IMG/VR virus record: IMGVR_UViG_3300045947_000237
Span: 1-21,703 of that record
Length of the DNA: 21,703 nucleotides
Strand: one strand, 5' to 3'
Source: a virus
Shown: positions 12,730 to 21,703 of the stretch, in pieces
Numbering within the stretch: the first letter of the stretch is position 1
Layout of the letters: every line of letters begins with the position of its first letter
Made by a program: the position numbers and the translations under genes
Notes under the pieces: generated by a model
Told to the model about the DNA's origin: nothing
The model's input: only the letters and a program-made list of their open reading frames with translations
Database searches by the model: none

Positions 12730-15654
12730 CTACCACCCTCCAAGCAGCGACTTGATCCGCTCATCCGCAGCGATAAACGACACAAACTGCTCCGCAGCAG
12801 ACTGCGCGCCCTCAGCAGAAGCCGACGGCATATTGATCACCACAGACCCCTCGCTGAACGTCAACGTCACCGCAGCACCCCCAGCGCCCCCCGACGGCAG
12901 CCCCGCATACGCCTGCTCACTGAGCGCCTGCCGCACCGTCGAAGCCTGCTCACGGGTCAGCACCATCTCCCCGCCGTGCAGCTGCGCCACCTGCTCGCCC
13001 GGAATCTCCCACGCGCCGGCCGTGTACCAGTTCCCGACGTCCTTGCCGTTGATCGGCACCCGGGCTTTCCAATGCGCCAGCGCCTTCGACGGAGAACCGT
13101 ACGCCCCCCGGATATAGTTCAGGCCCCACGCGATCTGCTTCTCCGGAGAATTCCGCCACGCATCGTTATTGGTTTCCGGGTACAGATTGCTCATCGCCTG
13201 CGGAATCCCGTACGCGTCAGACCCCGGGTTGTCGGCGTTGTGCCTCCAGTTCGACTCCTTCGTCCACAGGTCGAACAGCGCATCCCACTCCCCGCCCGTC
13301 CAGCCGTACGGAGCAGCCGCAGCCATCGTCTTGCCCAGCGCCGCGTTCCCCGACGGATTGTCCGGCGCCGGCGCCACAGACTCGCCCGCGTCGCTGTTCT
13401 GATCCGACACGTTCTGCGGGCCGCCCGAACCACCACCACCTCCGCCGGCGAGGGCAGCAGCAAGGATGTCCTTCTCCTCACCGCCCCCGGACGCACCCCC
13501 GCCGTTCCCTCCAGGCCCCCACGACTTCGTCGCGTCGTTCTCACTGCCCCCCAGCAGGCCCGTGGCCCGGTCACCGCCGGACATGATGCGCTTGGCGTGC
13601 GTGTACTTCCCCGACCAGCCGATCGGCTTCTCCACCACCCCGTACTGCGGGCTGGACGCCTCCACCACGCTCCCGTTGCCCGCGTACAGGCCAACGTGGG
13701 AGTTGTCCCCGTAGAACACCAGGTCACCGGGGAGCAGTTTGTCCAGGCCGACCTCGACGCCCTCCTTGACCTGGTCGTAGGTCACCCGCGGGATCTTCTG
13801 CCCGATCGAGGCAAAGGCGTGCTGCACGAGGCTGGAGCAGTCCCAGGCGTCCGGTCCGGTCGCACCCAGGATGTACCGCTTGCCGACCTCGGCCCGCGCG
13901 GTTGCGATGACCTTGTCCATGTCACCCGACACCAGACCGGGAGCCGACTGATCCTTCCGGCCCGGCACACCCGCATGGTCGGGCTCACCCAGCGTGCGCT
14001 GCTTGTTCTGCTCCTGTCCCATACGCTTGCCGAACGTCGCCGACGCACCGCCTCCGCCCTGACCACCCGGCGGAGAATTCATCGCCGCGCCCAGGTACGT
14101 TCCGAGAATAGGGATGGAGGCAACACCCTTCTGGAACCAATTACTCTCCTCCCCGCTCGATTCCGTAGACCACCCTTCCTTGCTGAACAAGTTTCCCTTG
14201 ATGTTGTTCCACGCCACCGCCCCCTTACCGACCAGCCCACCCTGCTCGCCGGCCGCCTTGTACTTCGCGAACGGCTCCAGCACGGGTTGCAGCATGTCCT
14301 TGATCGCGATCGTCGCATGCGCGGCGTCCACCAGAGCGTTCTGCACGCCACCGGAAGCCGCCAGCATGTGCTCGCGTTCCTTGCCCCGCTTCCGGTACTC
14401 CACATCGACCGCGGTCTCACCGAAATCCTTCAACCCAGGCGTCTGCTGAATCTTCTGACGGGCCGCCTTGGCCTTCTTCTCATCCTTGCCGGCCGCGTCC
14501 GTGAACAGCTTCTCGACGTCCGTCTGACTCAGGTCCGGGAACTGGTCCGCGACCTTCTTCTGGTTCTCGATGGTCTTCACCATCGCCTCGGCCTGGGTGG
14601 CGTCCATCCCCAGCTCGGAAGCGAACGTGTCGATGTTCTGCGACAGATAGCCGCCCGGCCGCAGAGCGTTCGCCAGGTGCTCGGCGTTGATCTGCCGCAG
14701 GTTCGACACCCCGAACGTCTGCGTGGCCAGCCGGGCCGCCATCGTCTGCGTGCCCACCACGTTTCCGCCGACCTGCCGCGACGGCCCCAGCCCCATCGCC
14801 AGCGACGTGTAGAACCCCTGCCCCGAACCGATCTTCGTCTGCATGTCCAGCGCGCCCGACGCCCCCAGCCCCGGTGTCCCCATCGCCAGCGCCGCGGCCT
14901 CGTTCATCATCCGCGGACGCTGCTGGGCGTTGTAGTTCCGCATGAACCCCGAGCCGGCCGAGAAAAGATCCTCGTTCGACGTCGCATAATTCTGCAATCC
15001 AGCGTCGAACAAAGGCTGAGCCGCAGCCTTCGCCCGCGCACCCATCGTGGCACCCGCCACCGGCTGCATACCCATCGTCCGCTGGTAGAACTGCGACTGG
15101 GCGAACGCGAAGTTCCGCTCATACGGAGCCCCCGCCGACACCGCCCCCGCAGCAGCCCCCAGCGTCTGCCCCACCGCCGCCATGCGGTTCATCCGCACCT
15201 CGGCGCTGTGCTGCGTCTCCAGCTGCTGCCGCTGCGCCGTCATGTTCGACCGCGCGTGCAGGAACCGGTTCGTATCCAGTTCCCGGTCCGCCTCCAGCCG
15301 CCGCACGCCGATGTTGTAATCACCGCGGCTGATCTGGCCCGCCGCCAGGCGTCCGCTCAGCCGGTCGTGGTCCTCCCGCGCACGCCTGCGCGCCTCAAGA
15401 AAGGACTGCGAAGCGATCGACTGCTGCCGGTCCAGCTGCTCGGACCGCGTGGTGTAGTACTGCTGCCCCCGCCCATGCTGCTGGCCCAGCCCGCCCAGCG
15501 CCCCCCACGGGGAGCCCGACGCCCCGCGCGACATCCCCTGCGTCAGCTGCGAAATCGCACGCGTCAGCTGACCCATCTGGCCGGCGAGCTGGTTGGTGCC
15601 GACGATCTGCGGGTTGCCCTGCTGGGGGCCGGGGCCCGGTACGGGATTGCTCAC
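12730..15654 (-). CDS. Tape measure protein with NlpC/P60 and lytic transglycosylase-like domains
   Basis: 974 residues from GTG 15654. Residues 1-570 are helical, Gln/Ala-rich and low in complexity (for example 75-160, RSEQLDRQQSIASQSF onward), as in tape measures. About 580-691 is an NlpC/P60 peptidase: Cys606 in WDCSSLVQHAF, His653 in DNSHVGLYAGNG, and Glu665 in VVEASS, spaced like the Cys-His-Glu triad of RipA. Gly/Ser-rich linkers follow. About 785-865 resembles a transglycosylase: Glu800 in KESNWRHNADNPGSDAYG, IPQAM, and NYIRGAYGSPSKALAHW. The C-terminus has GGEMVLTREQAS, common in phage tape measures. It sets tail length and probably cuts peptidoglycan on injection. The stop overlaps the region just before the next start. 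Family and catalytic residues are seen; activity is inferred. Confidence 0.93.
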   Translation of the reverse strand: MSNPVPGPGPQQGNPQIVGTNQLAGQMGQLTRAISQLTQGMSRGASGSPWGALGGLGQQHGRGQQYYTTRSEQLDRQQSIASQSFLEARRRAREDHDRLSGRLAAGQISRGDYNIGVRRLEADRELDTNRFLHARSNMTAQRQQLETQHSAEVRMNRMAAVGQTLGAAAGAVSAGAPYERNFAFAQSQFYQRTMGMQPVAGATMGARAKAAAQPLFDAGLQNYATSNEDLFSAGSGFMRNYNAQQRPRMMNEAAALAMGTPGLGASGALDMQTKIGSGQGFYTSLAMGLGPSRQVGGNVVGTQTMAARLATQTFGVSNLRQINAEHLANALRPGGYLSQNIDTFASELGMDATQAEAMVKTIENQKKVADQFPDLSQTDVEKLFTDAAGKDEKKAKAARQKIQQTPGLKDFGETAVDVEYRKRGKEREHMLAASGGVQNALVDAAHATIAIKDMLQPVLEPFAKYKAAGEQGGLVGKGAVAWNNIKGNLFSKEGWSTESSGEESNWFQKGVASIPILGTYLGAAMNSPPGGQGGGGASATFGKRMGQEQNKQRTLGEPDHAGVPGRKDQSAPGLVSGDMDKVIATARAEVGKRYILGATGPDAWDCSSLVQHAFASIGQKIPRVTYDQVKEGVEVGLDKLLPGDLVFYGDNSHVGLYAGNGSVVEASSPQYGVVEKPIGWSGKYTHAKRIMSGGDRATGLLGGSENDATKSWGPGGNGGGASGGGEEKDILAAALAGGGGGGSGGPQNVSDQNSDAGESVAPAPDNPSGNAALGKTMAAAAPYGWTGGEWDALFDLWTKESNWRHNADNPGSDAYGIPQAMSNLYPETNNDAWRNSPEKQIAWGLNYIRGAYGSPSKALAHWKARVPINGKDVGNWYTAGAWEIPGEQVAQLHGGEMVLTREQASTVRQALSEQAYAGLPSGGAGGAAVTLTFSEGSVVINMPSASAEGAQSAAEQFVSFIAADERIKSLLGGW
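12736..12741 (-). promoter_or_regulatory. Ribosome binding site fixing the CIS-tube-like gene start
   Basis: GGAGGG, inside the last codons of the tape measure gene, is eight bases before ATG 12727. It overlaps the in-frame GTG at 12736, which is therefore not the start. Confidence 0.65.
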
Positions 15655-16656
15655 GCCATGCTCCTCTCCGCCCTCCACAGGGCCACAGCCACCCAATGCC
15701 TGCGCTCACGCACCGGCAGCGCCCTCAGCACATCCAGCGGCCACGAGGGATACGCATCAGCGACCAGCTCGATCTCCTCGTACGCGCGCGCGTAGTCAGA
15801 AGCCGCGAAACAGCACCCCGAGATTGATCGGGAGGGGGACCTCCTCTCCGCACGTCTCGTGCGTCCACACCGCCTCCCCGTACTGCGGGCCCGGCTGGCT
15901 CTGCACCAGCCACCGCACCAGCACCCGCCGGTCGGCCATCGACATCCGCTGCGCGAAGTCGTTGCGGACCTCCTGCACCCCGTCCGGGAGCCGCAGCCCC
16001 AGCACACACCGGTTGAGCATCTCCGAGTTCACCTTCGCCGCGGAGGCGCCCTTCATCTTCATCGCGTGCGCCTGGTCGGCCCCGTTGGGAATCCGCACCC
16101 TGGCCACCGCACCGCCGGCCAGGGGAACCTCGTAGAACTCCTGCTGCGGGTCCTCCATGCGCCGCACCGGCAGGTCGTCCAGGTGGTAGTCGAGGTCGGT
16201 CAGCTCCCCGCAGTTCGCGCACGGCAGCTTCTTGTACTCCACGAAGTCCCCGAACGTCGCGCGCCTCACCGCCAGGAGCAGCTCCTCGCGCTCTCCCATG
16301 ATCAGCTCGGAGGCGACCTGCCGGTTCATCTCCACCGCGCCGATCCCCACCACGCCGCGGACCAGGGCCGTCTCGAACGCCTTCAGCTCATCACCTCCCG
16401 CGGCCTCGATCGCTTCCTCGTCGGCTCCGTTCAGCTCCCGCAGCTCCGCCTCGCAGTGCCAGGTGCCGCCGCGCAGGATGCCGTGCTGGAGGATCAGGTG
16501 GCGGGAGGAGGGAGGGGTGATCTGCGGGCGCGGAATGTTCTTGGCGTCGGCGAGAACCTGCTGGGTGGCCGCCATCGCGGCCTCGGGGTTGGTCAGGCCG
16601 CTGATCGCTTCGCCGCCGAAGGCGTTCCAGTCCGGGAGGGTGCTCGGGCTTGTCAC
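15651..16656 (-). CDS. Extended tail assembly chaperone made by probable +1 (or -2) frameshift
   Basis: Predicted join of 16656-15808 with 15806-15651, giving 334 residues if the slip is at TTT-C. The 51-residue extension (AASDYARAYEEIELVADAYP onward to ERSMA) reads like real protein, helical and well balanced, and ends at the TGA overlapping the tape measure start. Its own frame has no ATG, GTG, TTG or CTG between the shadow of the upstream gene and the Leu of EIEL, so independent initiation is unlikely. In siphophages and many myophages the longer chaperone form (GT) is made this way and binds the tape measure. A sequencing frameshift or a 38-residue peptide starting at CTG are the alternatives. 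Confidence 0.7.
15661..15665 (-). promoter_or_regulatory. Ribosome binding site fixing the tape measure start
   Basis: AGGAG lies six bases before GTG 15654. The GTG overlaps the TGA of the frameshifted chaperone as GTGA. The ATG at 15659-15657 just upstream is in the chaperone extension frame, not the tape measure frame. Confidence 0.65.
15781..15819 (-). promoter_or_regulatory. Candidate programmed frameshift signal
   Basis: In mRNA sense the zero frame reads GGG GTG CTG TTT CGC GGC TTC TGA C. TTT followed by C (15810-15807) lets tRNA-Phe re-pair perfectly one base downstream on TTC. GGGGTG lies three bases before the TTT and resembles a Shine-Dalgarno element at the short spacing that stimulates +1 shifting in the release factor 2 gene. 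A 14-base palindrome, TACGCGCGCGCGTA (15794-15781), follows 12 bases after the slip site and could fold into a GC-rich hairpin. GGGG (15819-15816) is a second possible +1 slip site. Confidence 0.55.
15796..16656 (-). CDS. Tail assembly chaperone, T4_baseplate-like, zero-frame product
   Basis: 286 residues from GTG 16656, with AAGGA upstream. The middle resembles the T4_baseplate (gp26-like) family found next to tube genes in many contractile systems: HCEAELRELNGADEEAI (68-84), GEREELLLAVRRATFGDFVE (121-140), then CANC (146-149). A further Cys (ETC, 267-269) lies near the C-terminus. The cysteines may bind zinc, but only one clear CxxC pair is present. Its slot, between the tube and tape measure genes, is that of the G/GT-type tail assembly chaperones, which coat the tape measure while the tube polymerises. 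The frame ends at a TGA (15796-15798), after which coding potential continues in the +1 frame, giving a longer form described separately. Confidence 0.8.
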   Translation of the reverse strand: MTSPSTLPDWNAFGGEAISGLTNPEAAMAATQQVLADAKNIPRPQITPPSSRHLILQHGILRGGTWHCEAELRELNGADEEAIEAAGGDELKAFETALVRGVVGIGAVEMNRQVASELIMGEREELLLAVRRATFGDFVEYKKLPCANCGELTDLDYHLDDLPVRRMEDPQQEFYEVPLAGGAVARVRIPNGADQAHAMKMKGASAAKVNSEMLNRCVLGLRLPDGVQEVRNDFAQRMSMADRRVLVRWLVQSQPGPQYGEAVWTHETCGEEVPLPINLGVLFRGF

Positions 16657-16677: not shown

Positions 16678-17268
16678 CTAACTGAACAGGGCTATCGAAT
16701 CGGGTCCGGTCTTGTCTGCGATCTTAAAGTCCCAGCCTTCATGCGCGAGAACCACCTGGCTGATGGCAATTCCGTTGCCGCCGGCGTTGAGGTCGGAGAA
16801 ATTCAATGCCTTGGGCCAGCAGTTGTAGAGCCGCCACCCGGCTTTGTACGGAGAGTTGATCGAGGTGATCGGGTGGTCGAGGAGATAGATGTCGACGGTC
16901 GCCCTGAAGTCCGTGCCCTTCGAGTTCCCGCCGACGCCCTGCATCACCTGGAACACACGGGTCATCCACGTGTAGATGTAGGAGTCCCCGAGGACCAGGC
17001 CGCGGGAAAGGGTGACGTCGGAGTACGTGGCCTGGAGGGGCATCTGCTGCACGGTGGTGTTCATGCCGCCCTGCCGGTAGGCCGTCGACTCCGCGGAAAT
17101 CGACAGCCCTGACACCGACATGAACCCCAGATTGCCTCCGTTGTAGTTCCCCGAGTTCTTCGCGCCCTGCTGGCTGATGATCACGCGGAACTTGAAGTTG
17201 CGCAGGGGATCGACGTCGATGTTCGAGAGAGAAGAACTCTGGGAAGTCCAACCCCACTGTCCCGGCAT
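16678..17268 (-). CDS. Tail tube protein 2 (gp19-like paralogue)
   Basis: 196 residues from ATG 17268. It shares with tube protein 1 the motifs DPLRNFKFRV, GFMSVSGLSI, YRQGGMN, VTLSRGLVLGD and AHEGWDFKI, each in the same order and spacing. It differs in loops, for example an NSGNYNGGN insertion before the GFMSV motif, and has a longer C-terminus (ADKTGPDSIALFS). Two tube paralogues after the sheath recall Afp1/Afp5 of extracellular injection systems, where one forms the shaft and the other the baseplate-proximal ring. By position next to the chaperone and baseplate genes this could be the ring-type tube, but that is inference. A GTG six bases upstream is a less likely start. Confidence 0.92.
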   Translation of the reverse strand: MPGQWGWTSQSSSLSNIDVDPLRNFKFRVIISQQGAKNSGNYNGGNLGFMSVSGLSISAESTAYRQGGMNTTVQQMPLQATYSDVTLSRGLVLGDSYIYTWMTRVFQVMQGVGGNSKGTDFRATVDIYLLDHPITSINSPYKAGWRLYNCWPKALNFSDLNAGGNGIAISQVVLAHEGWDFKIADKTGPDSIALFS

Positions 17269-17275
17269 CGTCACA

Positions 17276-17295: not shown

Positions 17296-17865
17296 TCAGA
17301 AGGAGACGGCTTCCCTCGGCCCGAAGTTCTTCGCGATCTTGAAGTCGAACCCCTCATGAGCCAGGGTCATCTGCTGCAACTCGACCCCGTTTGCCCCGGC
17401 GTCCAGGTCACCGAACGCCATCGAGGTGACCCACGCGTTCCAGATCCTCCAGCCCGCCTTGTAGGTGACCTTCTCCGACGTCACCGGGTGATCGATGATG
17501 AACACATCAACAATCGCCCGGTAATCCGTGTCGCCGTTGTTGCTGCCATCACCCCCCCGCGTCACCTTGAACAGCTGCTGCACCCAGTTGAAGAAGTTCG
17601 TGTCACCGCAGATAAGACCGCGGGACAGCGTGATCGGAGCGAAGTCACTCTGCCCGGCCATCTTCTGCGTGGTCGTGTTCATCTCGCCCTGCCGGTACAC
17701 GATCACATCCGTCGTGATCGAAAGACCCGACACCGACATGAACCCGGCCCGACCCCTTCCACCGGCCCCCTTGAACGCAATGTGCACGTGGAACTTGAAG
17801 TTCCGAAGGGGGTCCGTTTCGATGTTCGCCAGCGAAGACTTCTGCGTCGTACCAGTGAGAGGCAC
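17296..17865 (-). CDS. Tail tube protein 1 (gp19-like)
   Basis: 189 residues of the contractile tail tube family. Family signs are DPLRNFKFHV (about 18-27), GFMSVSGLSI (43-52), the YRQGEMN loop (58-64), ITLSRGLICGD, and the C-terminal LAHEGFDFKI. Hexamers of this fold stack into the inner tube that is driven out on contraction. GTG at 17865 is chosen because GAGG lies seven bases upstream. Position directly after the sheath is standard, and its stop is 27 nt before the next tube start. It is clearly paralogous to the following gene along its whole length. Being first after the sheath, it is the better candidate for the major tube subunit, though the sequence does not settle that. Confidence 0.93.
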   Translation of the reverse strand: MPLTGTTQKSSLANIETDPLRNFKFHVHIAFKGAGGRGRAGFMSVSGLSITTDVIVYRQGEMNTTTQKMAGQSDFAPITLSRGLICGDTNFFNWVQQLFKVTRGGDGSNNGDTDYRAIVDVFIIDHPVTSEKVTYKAGWRIWNAWVTSMAFGDLDAGANGVELQQMTLAHEGFDFKIAKNFGPREAVSF

Positions 17866-17926: not shown

Positions 17927-19924
17927 TTACAGCTGCGTACCGTTGCCGCCCGCGACATCCGAGGCGGTCAGACCTCCCTGGTACTGGGAGATGTCGATGA
18001 CGATGAACTCGGCCGGCGACGCCAGAGCGACACCCACCTTCACGTGGATTTCCCCGTTCGCCACCGTCTGAGGCGGATTGTTGCTCTCGTCGCAGATGAC
18101 GAAGAACGCCTGCTCGGGCAGCGTCGACTGGAACCTGCCCGCCTGCGTCATCGTCATCAGCTGCTGCGTCACCAGCGTCGTGATCTGGTGCCACAGATCC
18201 GGACCATTCGGCTCAAAAATGGCGAACCTGGTCGTACGCTCCAGCATGTCCTCCAGGAACACCAGCATCCTGCGCACGCTGACGTACCGGTCCGGCATCC
18301 CCATGCGCAGGGTCCGCGCGCCCATGATGCAGAAACCCACCTGCGGGATCGGACGGCAGACGTTGATCCCCCGCTCGTTCAGCCTGTCCAGCTGCTCCAG
18401 CGTGAACAGATGCTGCACCCCGACCACGCCCACCAGCGGGTAGTCCACACCCGCCGCCGCCCTGTTCGGGCCCACCAGCGCGTCGGCGAGCGCGTACTGG
18501 CCCATCACCGCGCCGCCCGCAGGCAGCAGCCGCATGCTCGTCAGCGACGTCCCCGCAGGGTCCGCCACCGCCAGCCACGGCCCGTACACCGCAGCCCACG
18601 ACGTCGAGGCCGGAAGGGTGCGCTCATACTCCGAGACCACCGTCGCCGTGTCGGGCCGGTCGACGTTGGGGACGTCCACCACCATGAACGCACGCCGCCG
18701 CTTCTCCACCCACTTGACCGCGGCGTCGATCTGCGTCTTGTCCGGCACCCCGTCGTTCACACCGGTCATACCGCACAGGTTGATCAGCAGCACGTCGTGA
18801 ATCGAGCCGAAGCCCTTCTCCAACGCAGCCGCCAGGTCCGGCGCCGGGGTATCGGGGTTGTCGGAGTCCTTGCCGCCCGCGAACGGGTCACGGCCCTGGG
18901 TGGACTCCAGCGACCACGAACCGTCCGGAGTCGGCGACGTACCCGCCACCGGCGTCGCCGGCGGCAGCAGATTCTTCGCGCTCACATAGTTCGAACCGCC
19001 CGTAGGCGAGTTCATCATGCCGATCACATACCGCGGGTCCGCCGGGTGCAGCGACACGTCCTGCCACGTCTCCACGACCCGCGCCGTGTCCGCCGCCTCC
19101 CCGTAGGAGATGACCACGTGCGCCCGCGTACGGTCCGCCGGATCCCACGACCGCGTCACCTCCACCCACAGCTGGTTGCCGTAGGCGCCCTCACCCTTCG
19201 CCGTCAGCTCCATCGCCGGAACGGGCGTGTTGTTCGGGCCCGTGGTGAACACCGGCACCGGATCCTGCTTCGGACCCTCCGCGGTCCCCTTGAACGGCAC
19301 GATCTCCACCCGGTACTCGGTGGCCACCGACAGGCCGGTGAACGTCACCTCCGGCTTCGTCGTCCCCACCTGCGGCACCCACACATCCCCCGGCTGGATC
19401 GGAGTCTGCGAACCCGCCAGGAAGAACCGCACCCGGTAGGCATCCACCGCGGCAGCAGGCAGCGCCGTCCACGTCAGCCAGATCCCCTTCGCCTTCGCCG
19501 GGAACTTCTCCGACAGGCCGGCGATCGGATTCGGCGGCGCCGTACCCGTACCCGTCGGCGCCTCACCCACCGGGGTCTGCACCCAGTCCGGCGGCAGATC
19601 CGGAGGATTCGGCACGTTGATCAGCGTCGCCTTCGCCGCCACCGCCCCCGTCTTCGCCGCCCGCAGCACCCACGTCTGCGCACCGCCGTTGGCGAAATAG
19701 TTGTAGACGGAGAACGGCAGGATGTTCAGGCCGTCGCCGAAGCCCCCGTACAGGGCCTGGAACTGCGACCAGGACGAGATCTTCACCGGCTTCGTCGGAC
19801 CCACCGTGTGCGTACCCACGAACGCCGCAATAGCCTGCCCCGGCGCCGTCACCGGCTCCGGAAGCGGCTTCAGGGTTTCGTTGATGTACACGCCCGGACG
19901 CTTGTACAGAAACGGCGTAGTCAT
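17927..19924 (-). CDS. Contractile tail sheath protein with an inserted fibronectin-type III-like domain
   Basis: 665 residues. The N-terminus (YKRPGVYINE, residues 7-16) and SSWSQFQALYGGF (50-62) are typical sheath motifs. The C-terminal domain (about 545-650: VRRMLVFLEDMLERTTRFA, FEPNGPDLW, then GRFQSTLPEQAFFV and VGVALASPAEFIVIDI) is the conserved sheath core with the interlocking C-terminal arm. Residues about 143-228 form an insert resembling fibronectin type III (GIWLTWTALPAAAVDAYRV, VTFTGLSVATEYRVEIVP). An insert there would sit on the outer face of the sheath. The sheath surrounds the tube and contracts to drive it through the envelope. ATG at 19924 has GGAG six bases upstream, overlapping the TAG of the preceding gene. 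The tube genes follow directly. Very confident on function; the fold of the insert is inferred. Confidence 0.95.
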   Translation of the reverse strand: MTTPFLYKRPGVYINETLKPLPEPVTAPGQAIAAFVGTHTVGPTKPVKISSWSQFQALYGGFGDGLNILPFSVYNYFANGGAQTWVLRAAKTGAVAAKATLINVPNPPDLPPDWVQTPVGEAPTGTGTAPPNPIAGLSEKFPAKAKGIWLTWTALPAAAVDAYRVRFFLAGSQTPIQPGDVWVPQVGTTKPEVTFTGLSVATEYRVEIVPFKGTAEGPKQDPVPVFTTGPNNTPVPAMELTAKGEGAYGNQLWVEVTRSWDPADRTRAHVVISYGEAADTARVVETWQDVSLHPADPRYVIGMMNSPTGGSNYVSAKNLLPPATPVAGTSPTPDGSWSLESTQGRDPFAGGKDSDNPDTPAPDLAAALEKGFGSIHDVLLINLCGMTGVNDGVPDKTQIDAAVKWVEKRRRAFMVVDVPNVDRPDTATVVSEYERTLPASTSWAAVYGPWLAVADPAGTSLTSMRLLPAGGAVMGQYALADALVGPNRAAAGVDYPLVGVVGVQHLFTLEQLDRLNERGINVCRPIPQVGFCIMGARTLRMGMPDRYVSVRRMLVFLEDMLERTTRFAIFEPNGPDLWHQITTLVTQQLMTMTQAGRFQSTLPEQAFFVICDESNNPPQTVANGEIHVKVGVALASPAEFIVIDISQYQGGLTASDVAGGNGTQL

Positions 19925-20626: not shown

Positions 20627-21703
20627 TCACGTGACAGTCAGATCCTTGAACAACGGCCGGCATGCAATGTCTAGAAGTGACCCGTTCGAGATGTGCACGT
20701 ACTGGCCGCGGAACTCAGAGTTTGCTGTCGTCGTTGACACATCCGGCTCCACGTCGGTCCGCGTCAGCGTCACGTCTGTCGCCGTGATGTCGATTCGGAA
20801 CGTCATCGCTGTCCCCGCTACCGGAACGCCGGCCGCAACCGCGGTGCCGAGCCCCGTACCGGACGCGCTGCCCGGAGTGTGCTTGAAGAGCTGCATCTGA
20901 CCGTTGTGCCGATACACCATGTGGTAGCCGCCCACCGCCGGATCCGTACCAAACTGATAGCGGCTGTCGTCCACCTTCCCGAAAGCGATCCCGGCGTGCT
21001 CGGTCACCGTCGTGGAAATCTGCGGGAACGTCATCGTGAACGTGATCGTCTGCACGTTCTTCGTACCGTCAGCCCCAAGCTCACCGATCAGCGCAGCGCC
21101 GGCTACCTGATCGACGTGCGCACTGCCGTCGGCGTCGTACTTCAGCGCCCAGCCACCGGAATATGTCTGGAGTCCGATCTCACCGGGAGACTTGATCCGG
21201 CGCCCCCACTGCGTGGCCGTACGAATCCTGTCGGTACGCCGGGCGTAGATTCCCTCCGCGCACATCATTCCCTTGACCCCGAGCCCGAGGTACTTGACCA
21301 CCTCGGAGCGGCGGTGGATTTCCCAGACGATCACTGTCTTGCCACCGGGCCTCGCCACCACCGCCTGGACGTTCGCATTCGTCATCGCGGTGGGGACACC
21401 CCACATCGAGGTGACAGCATCCTTGGCGTCCATGGCAGCCTGCGTAGTGCCGGCGTCCACGTAGACCCAGGTCCGGAATCCGTTGTCCCGCGCCCACTGC
21501 AACGAGGCAGTGGAAGCGCCGATGTGCGCTTTCCACACGACGGACTTGTTGGCGTTGGGGAAACGGCTCGTCAGCATCTGCTGGATGGGCGCGATTCCGG
21601 ATACCTGCTTGGGCTCCAGGAAGATGATCGCCCTGCCGATGTACCGGTTGAGTGCCTCGGCGAGGGTGGGCACCGGCTGGGTCTGCCATCCGGTGCCGAG
21701 GTA
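20627..21703 (-). CDS. GDPD-like phosphodiesterase domain with C-terminal beta-sandwich, 5' truncated by the window
   Basis: The frame stays open to base 21703, so the N-terminus lies outside the window; 358 residues are visible. The first ~165 resemble the second half of a glycerophosphodiester phosphodiesterase TIM barrel. They open with PVPTLAEALNRY and IIFLEPK, where the Glu and Lys of LEPK match the metal-binding Glu and Lys of the usual IEIK motif. Later there is VKGMMCAEG, like the late barrel strands. The remaining ~185 residues are beta-rich (HAGIAFGKVDDSRYQF, HMVYRHNGQMQLFK) and look like a LamG/concanavalin-type sandwich. GDPDs cleave glycerophosphodiesters, and in phage tails they are thought to act on teichoic acid. 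The first catalytic His (HRG motif) would lie upstream, so activity cannot be judged. The GTG at 21673 is an in-frame codon, not the likely start. It lies 69 nt upstream of the probable terminator gene. Confidence 0.7.
   Translation of the reverse strand, partial: YLGTGWQTQPVPTLAEALNRYIGRAIIFLEPKQVSGIAPIQQMLTSRFPNANKSVVWKAHIGASTASLQWARDNGFRTWVYVDAGTTQAAMDAKDAVTSMWGVPTAMTNANVQAVVARPGGKTVIVWEIHRRSEVVKYLGLGVKGMMCAEGIYARRTDRIRTATQWGRRIKSPGEIGLQTYSGGWALKYDADGSAHVDQVAGAALIGELGADGTKNVQTITFTMTFPQISTTVTEHAGIAFGKVDDSRYQFGTDPAVGGYHMVYRHNGQMQLFKHTPGSASGTGLGTAVAAGVPVAGTAMTFRIDITATDVTLTRTDVEPDVSTTTANSEFRGQYVHISNGSLLDIACRPLFKDLTVT

Follow-up and report, generated by a model that had tools for sequence, protein, structure and literature searches.

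A tail assembly chaperone family of contractile-tailed phages with a conserved UUU_C site for a probable +1 frameshift

How are 51 codons expressed that follow the end of a phage tail gene in its +1 frame and run up to the start of the tape measure gene? The window, i.e. the whole stretch of 21,703 nucleotides analysed here (a virus record from IMG/VR), carries on its minus strand the tail module of a contractile-tailed phage whose kin are the Streptomyces phages BRock, LuckySocke, Alone3, pSt2308 and GiJojo. Along the minus strand, the module comprises the sheath gene, two tube genes, a gene in the chaperone slot, the tape measure gene and then baseplate genes. The chaperone-slot gene (15796–16656, GTG start at 16656) encodes 286 aa in the zero frame; a tail tube gene of the gp19 family (16678–17274; PF06841, E = 1e-28) lies directly upstream and the tape measure gene (12730–15654; phrog_329, NlpC/P60 domain) downstream. 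The tube–chaperone–tape measure order is kept in annotated relatives, and a tube gene directly precedes the chaperone gene in 39/39 locus representatives. The window has two tube genes in tandem (16678–17274 and 17296–17865; 50% identity over 189 aa), and most related loci have one; locus L083 also has two in tandem, and L084 has a second tube match downstream of the chaperone gene. Scanning the window for Rfam families and tRNAs gave no matches.

On the minus strand, the zero frame ends with ATC AAT CTC GGG GTG CTG TTT CGC GGC TTC TGA (stop at 15796–15798). The putative slip site TTT_C occupies 15807–15810 (P-site UUU at 15810–15808, C at 15807), and the +1-frame extension (15651–15806) consists of 51 codons plus a TGA (15653–15651) that overlaps the GTG start of the tape measure gene (GTGA). 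The codon immediately 5' of the slip codon, in the E site, is CTG (15811–15813); its three bases separate the TTT from a Shine-Dalgarno-like run, GGGGTG (15814–15819), and a 14-base GC palindrome, TACGCGCGCGCGTA, spans 15781–15794. The original prediction had placed the stop, GGGGTG, CTG, TTT, C and palindrome correctly. Its proposal that the two frames form one long protein is also borne out by the reading frames: when TTT+C is taken as one step, a single open frame of 334 residues results (...LGVLF-AASDYAR...ERSMA).

We then compared homologues taken from the records of six isolate phages and from three profile scans, two over viral contigs and one over bacterial genomes. This gave 94 distinct sequences with a complete end, down to ∼30% identity to the window protein, and a representative set of 40 homologues under 80% identity, 29 of them high-GC. 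All 94 have an in-frame TTT shortly before the zero frame ends, with an open +1 extension directly after it, as expected for the +1 programmed frameshift that had been predicted, and a single continuous frame, which would have spoken for a sequencing error, was found in 0/94. At 66% GC, open frames arise easily; nevertheless, the frame arrangement is beyond chance because it recurs in all 94 homologues. A sequencing error or a decayed gene might be suspected in a metagenome-type virus record, but the same frame step recurs in phage isolates and across the 94 distinct relatives, which come from numerous projects; these homologues refute the explanation, and its probability is negligible.

The slip codon itself is strictly conserved. 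TTT is followed by C in 90/94 distinct homologues and by T in the other four, and among the representatives TTT is present in 40/40 and TTTC in 39/40. This does not reflect general codon usage: in the 29 high-GC representatives, the other Phe codons are TTC in 216/229 cases and TTT in 13/229 (5.7%), compared with TTT in 29/29 at the slip site. By contrast, the surroundings vary. The following codon may be CGC, CGT, CGG, CAG, CTC, CTT, CCG, CCT, TTC or, once, TGA; the zero-frame residue after TTT may be R, Q, L or P, and the +1 residue is likewise variable. Some relatives (e.g. L015) have the +1 frame closed three codons before the slip site, and in others (L309 and L039) the zero frame ends 0–1 codon after TTT. 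Because the frames are closed so near on both sides, the only codons common to all homologues are those around NTG-TTT-CNN. Since the zero-frame stop varies in type and distance (0–8 codons) while TTT stays invariant, the slip can be placed at UUU_C, and a +1 shift there is strongly supported by the sequence comparison. Within NTG-TTT-CNN, three good base pairs are kept only by a move from UUU to UUC (or, in the four homologues with TTTT, from UUU to UUU), in agreement with the predicted slip, in which tRNA-Phe would re-pair fully one base on.

The window also conforms to the UUU_CGN motif, with an in-frame UUU, then C, and CGC in the A site; an A-site CGN occurs in 23/40 representatives. A -2 shift, as in phage Mu, would bring the ribosome into the identical frame. 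It would, however, require tRNA-Phe to re-pair from UUU to UGU with a mismatch in the middle position, where the +1 move gives a perfect UUC, and would leave the invariant C after TTT unexplained; we therefore regard it as very improbable. A canonical -1 heptamer (X_XXY_YYZ) was sought at the window slip site and rejected, since the site reads CTG TTT CGC and is followed by an extension in the +1 frame. The base directly before the slip TTT is G in 37/40 representatives, which exceeds the expectation from leucine codon usage: Leu codons elsewhere in these genes end in G in 570/1213 cases (47%). This E-site G might help the +1 slip or might guard against a -1 slip.

The extension evolves as protein, under protein-level selection. 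Differences at +1-frame codon positions 1:2:3 amount to 1393:1098:3667, a descriptive count over 224 equal-length related pairs with shared ancestry. Its length in the homologues is about 47–83 residues (one is shorter, at a contig end), and the alignment has a conserved Trp and an RER / ER-W motif. When the short form and the extension were folded separately, the extension was predicted to form three helices (pLDDT 94.3); a fold search with the 51 residues returned no significant match.

Alternatively, the 51-codon frame could be a small gene of its own, with its own start or coupled to the end of the upstream gene. Stop and restart signals of phages often overlap tightly, and the GenBank records of BRock, LuckySocke, Alone3 and GiJojo do treat the extension as a small gene in its own right that starts further downstream. 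The annotated spans (L002, 5869–6051; L003, 5878–6033; L004, 5878–6033; L006, 5830–6027) start inside or adjoining the conserved domain, and in the pSt2308 record (L005) the extension is not annotated. Yet the conserved part of the extension starts right at the slip site, and no ATG, GTG or TTG occurs within the first 20 extension codons of the window and of 28/40 representatives, so the claim that the extension has no start of its own stands over that stretch; where start codons do occur in the other representatives, their positions differ. Nor would a separate gene account for an invariant TTT C within the gene upstream of it. Overall, separate expression of the extension appears very unlikely in this family.

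The bacterial release factor 2 gene (prfB) offers another model of a +1 P-site slip. Its shift needs CUU, a stop codon in the A site and a Shine-Dalgarno element three bases away. The original prediction saw a release-factor-2-like architecture at the locus; in a shift of this type, Shine-Dalgarno pairing and the in-frame stop would drive the slip, with a 3' hairpin. Some sequences do resemble it: GGGGTG precedes CTG-TTT in the window, a GGGG run occurs in one large group of relatives, and relative L309 has TTG TTT TGA, with the stop in the A site, as a natural variant of the release-factor-2 type. But none of the three prfB requirements is conserved in the phage family. The slip codon is UUU, not CUU; in the window CGC directly follows TTT and the stop comes three codons on, and in the relatives TAA, TGA or TAG occurs 0–8 codons after TTT. 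A stop so variable in identity and distance neither belongs to the slip signal nor acts as an A-site trigger.

Predicted pairing to the 3' end of 16S rRNA upstream of the slip site was compared with that of synonymous codon alternatives. It was better than 90% of the alternatives in 5/40 representatives, where four are expected, so an element three bases 5' of the slip codon shows no sign of selection over the 40 representatives, and several relatives have no GGGG run. The 60 bases 3' of the site fold no better than mononucleotide shuffles (mean z = +0.16 over the 40 representatives; +0.44 in the window), and the GC palindrome, pointed out in the original prediction, is not conserved and shows no sign of a function. 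A-site codons are not rare either (CGC 90 and CAG 313 in the window). Our results thus give no support to a release-factor-2-like architecture, and we consider such a shift quite improbable. Among Shine-Dalgarno pairing, 3' structure and a slow A-site codon, no stimulator was found beyond the tetranucleotide and, perhaps, its 5' neighbour.

We next consider which protein is extended. The zero-frame protein belongs to PF12322 (T4_baseplate; E = 1.6e-6, 28.4 bits against a cut-off of 24.5) and matches phrog_150 (baseplate hub; E = 1.3e-7). Together with its position between tube and tape measure, this accords with the predicted tail-chaperone slot. The short form is predicted to fold with pLDDT 91.8, and its best BFVD matches are predicted hub assembly proteins of T4-like phages (E = 5e-21). 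In the PDB, no match was found by sequence and none significant by fold: the HK97 tail assembly chaperone (2ob9) ranked fifth, below significance (E = 1.6, probability 0.41, TM 0.46–0.48 on the target), and this modelled resemblance is only a hint. Two features expected of a two-form tail chaperone are present: (i) the gene is flanked by those for the tail tube and the tape measure; and (ii) a conserved frame step near its 3' end, common to the 94 homologues compared, adds a C-terminal domain.

We consider it highly probable that this gene encodes a PF12322 tail assembly chaperone made as two proteins through a +1 slip at UUU_C, with a long form of 334 aa. Most ribosomes would end at TGA and release the 286-aa short form. 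A minority, presumably at low efficiency, would slip with tRNA-Phe (anticodon GAA) in the P site: the tRNA would quit UUU, where it forms a G-U wobble pair, and re-pair with UUC, skipping one C. Reading of 51 further codons would then give the long form with its extra three-helix domain. If the two forms divide their work as gpG and gpGT of phage lambda do, the tape measure protein would be covered by the short form, and the less abundant long form would bring in subunits of the tail tube. As in lambda, one gene placed ahead of that for the tape measure would yield two proteins, and a frameshift right at the gene's 3' end would supply the extension; unlike in lambda, the shift would be +1 rather than -1, and the zinc-ribbon PF12322 protein has no detectable sequence match to gpG.

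The UUU_C motif would be a bacterial-phage case of a known kind. A TTT-CGC candidate for +1 shifting was proposed in the tail assembly chaperone of HF1-group/HSTV-2 haloarchaeal myoviruses (PMC7230728; reviewed in PMC5009743), and we confirm the sequence GAG AAG TTT CGC AGA TAG in HF2. The original prediction had called such a +1 signal in a tail chaperone unusual; this holds relative to -1 shifts, but not in view of the earlier halovirus proposal of UUU_CGC (PMC7230728). Both systems have in common the slot between tail tube and tape measure, the frame step and TTT CGC near a stop. By contrast, the halovirus hosts are archaeal and that proposal was based on six close genomes, a narrower comparison than the present one. 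By eye, the HF2 chaperone has no evident sequence relation to PF12322; if the two are indeed unrelated, the motif would have had a second origin in the HF1 group.

In influenza A, a UUU_CGN +1 shift produces PA-X, as shown by protein sequencing (PMC3498833), and a wider UUU_C class has been predicted by Firth et al.; UUU_CGN shifting has also been proposed for plant amalgaviruses (PMC5052127). The P-site slip from UUU to UUC is the same as that proposed here. These are, however, RNA viruses using eukaryotic ribosomes, the E-site codon is UCC compared with mostly CTG in the phage family, and the A-site codon of the phage family is often not CGN (CAG, CTC, CTT or CCG). The Listeria phages PSA, A118 and A500 also use +1 shifts in structural genes; these encode capsid and tail shaft proteins rather than a chaperone, and the slip is at a proline site, CCC_U (PMC5009743).

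More distant relatives differ in the direction of the presumed shift. Bacillus phage SP-15 (TTT CAC) and phage GXN1 (TTT CGT) both have +1 extensions; a Flavobacterium phage has TTT CTT, Listeria phage LIS04 TTT TTT AGT and Microcystis phage Mel-JY01 TTT TTT TGG. Among 24 distinct IMG/VR relatives of the Bacillus/Listeria-type group, 19 have UUU_C, one has UUU_U and four have neither. These four (L213, L216, L218 and L219) share TTY AAT CCC AGT in place of UUU_C (gene end matched at 1501), and their +1 slip may instead occur at CCC_A. Cyanophage S-SM2, Vibrio phage ValKK3, GAP32, Atu_ph07 and PA5oct, on the other hand, have NNT TTT TTC with an extension in the -1 frame. In cyanophage-type relatives, the canonical -1 heptamer T_TTT_TTC and a -1 extension occur at the corresponding place in 78/78 distinct sequences. 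The gp26 genes with NNT TTT TTC and a gp51-like -1 extension come from cyanophage-type, Vibrio and jumbo phages (L103, L107, L102, L105, L095, L101 and L112–L191). The -1 extensions of S-SM2 and ValKK3 are annotated as separate genes under the name of T4 gp51, baseplate hub assembly catalyst. Because an ATG lies within many of the -1 extensions, their independent initiation is a serious alternative in this group. No shift is visible in Agricanvirus gp80 (L094). When the extension profiles of the three groups were compared with each other, scores were 21–33, against 12–14 at most for column-shuffled controls.

These comparisons bear on T4, the listed exception to the conserved tail-chaperone frameshift (PMC5009743). 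A T4 review describes both gp26 and gp51 as hub assembly chaperones, with gp51 absent from the particle, and calls their role in hub assembly unknown or contradictory (PMC3004832). They have the Pfam and PHROG families in common with the window family. PF12322 covers residues 1–206 of 208 in gp26 but only 1–201 of 249 in gp51. In phrog_150, gp51 is covered throughout (profile 13–280), S-SM2 gp26 only to 232, and the S-SM2 extension lies at 241–281; phrog_634 links the -1 extensions to gp51 residues 147–246. The long-form profile of the window family aligns with the gp51 profile from end to end (probability 95), whereas with the gp26 profile it aligns only up to the slip point (probability 95).

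Cyanophage extensions match gp51 with probability 96. Directly, the window-group extension matches gp51 weakly (19.8, shuffled maximum 14.2), and it scores 24.0 against the cyanophage extensions (shuffled 13.3). Compared with single T4 proteins, the extension profile scored gp51 no better than gp28, so the link to gp51 rests on family profiles. By way of the cyanophage extensions, we infer that the extension of the window family is homologous to the C-terminus of gp51. The simplest reading of these alignments is that T4 would encode the short form as gp26 and the long form as gp51, in two complete genes and with no frameshift, in contrast to the window family.

It is likely, in our view, that gp26 and gp51 serve the T4 supergroup as its short- and long-form tail assembly chaperones and that expression in two forms is ancestral there. 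Most relatives would make both from one gene by a slip at a conserved Phe site, forward (UUU_C) or backward (U_UUU_UUC) by lineage, and T4 and its close kin would have exchanged the slip for two genes. If true, this would explain the place of T4 as the exception and point to a role for both proteins. A literature search, with most subscription journals outside its scope, found no prior report of a gp26/gp51 frameshift. The use of one Phe site for +1 or -1 shifting by lineage, replaced in T4 by two genes, appears to be new.

Few +1 shift motifs are known in bacteria and these are poorly defined; according to one prediction tool, no general forward-shift motif is known (PMC10885494). A large and divergent phage family in which UUU_C stays fixed while A-site codon, stop and neighbouring sequence can change would offer a natural series for +1 slippage, in a family that appears to change shift direction at one codon. 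Many annotations that give the extension as a separate gene, or leave it out, would be corrected.

Three further observations concern other genes of the window. The tail sheath gene (17927–19924) encodes a fibronectin type III-like insert at residues 144–224. By eye, a frame at the window end (20627–21703) has an N-terminal part like glycerophosphodiester phosphodiesterases. Besides its NlpC/P60 peptidase domain, the tape measure protein contains a transglycosylase-like region (phrog_12661), and it probably combines two wall-cutting activities.
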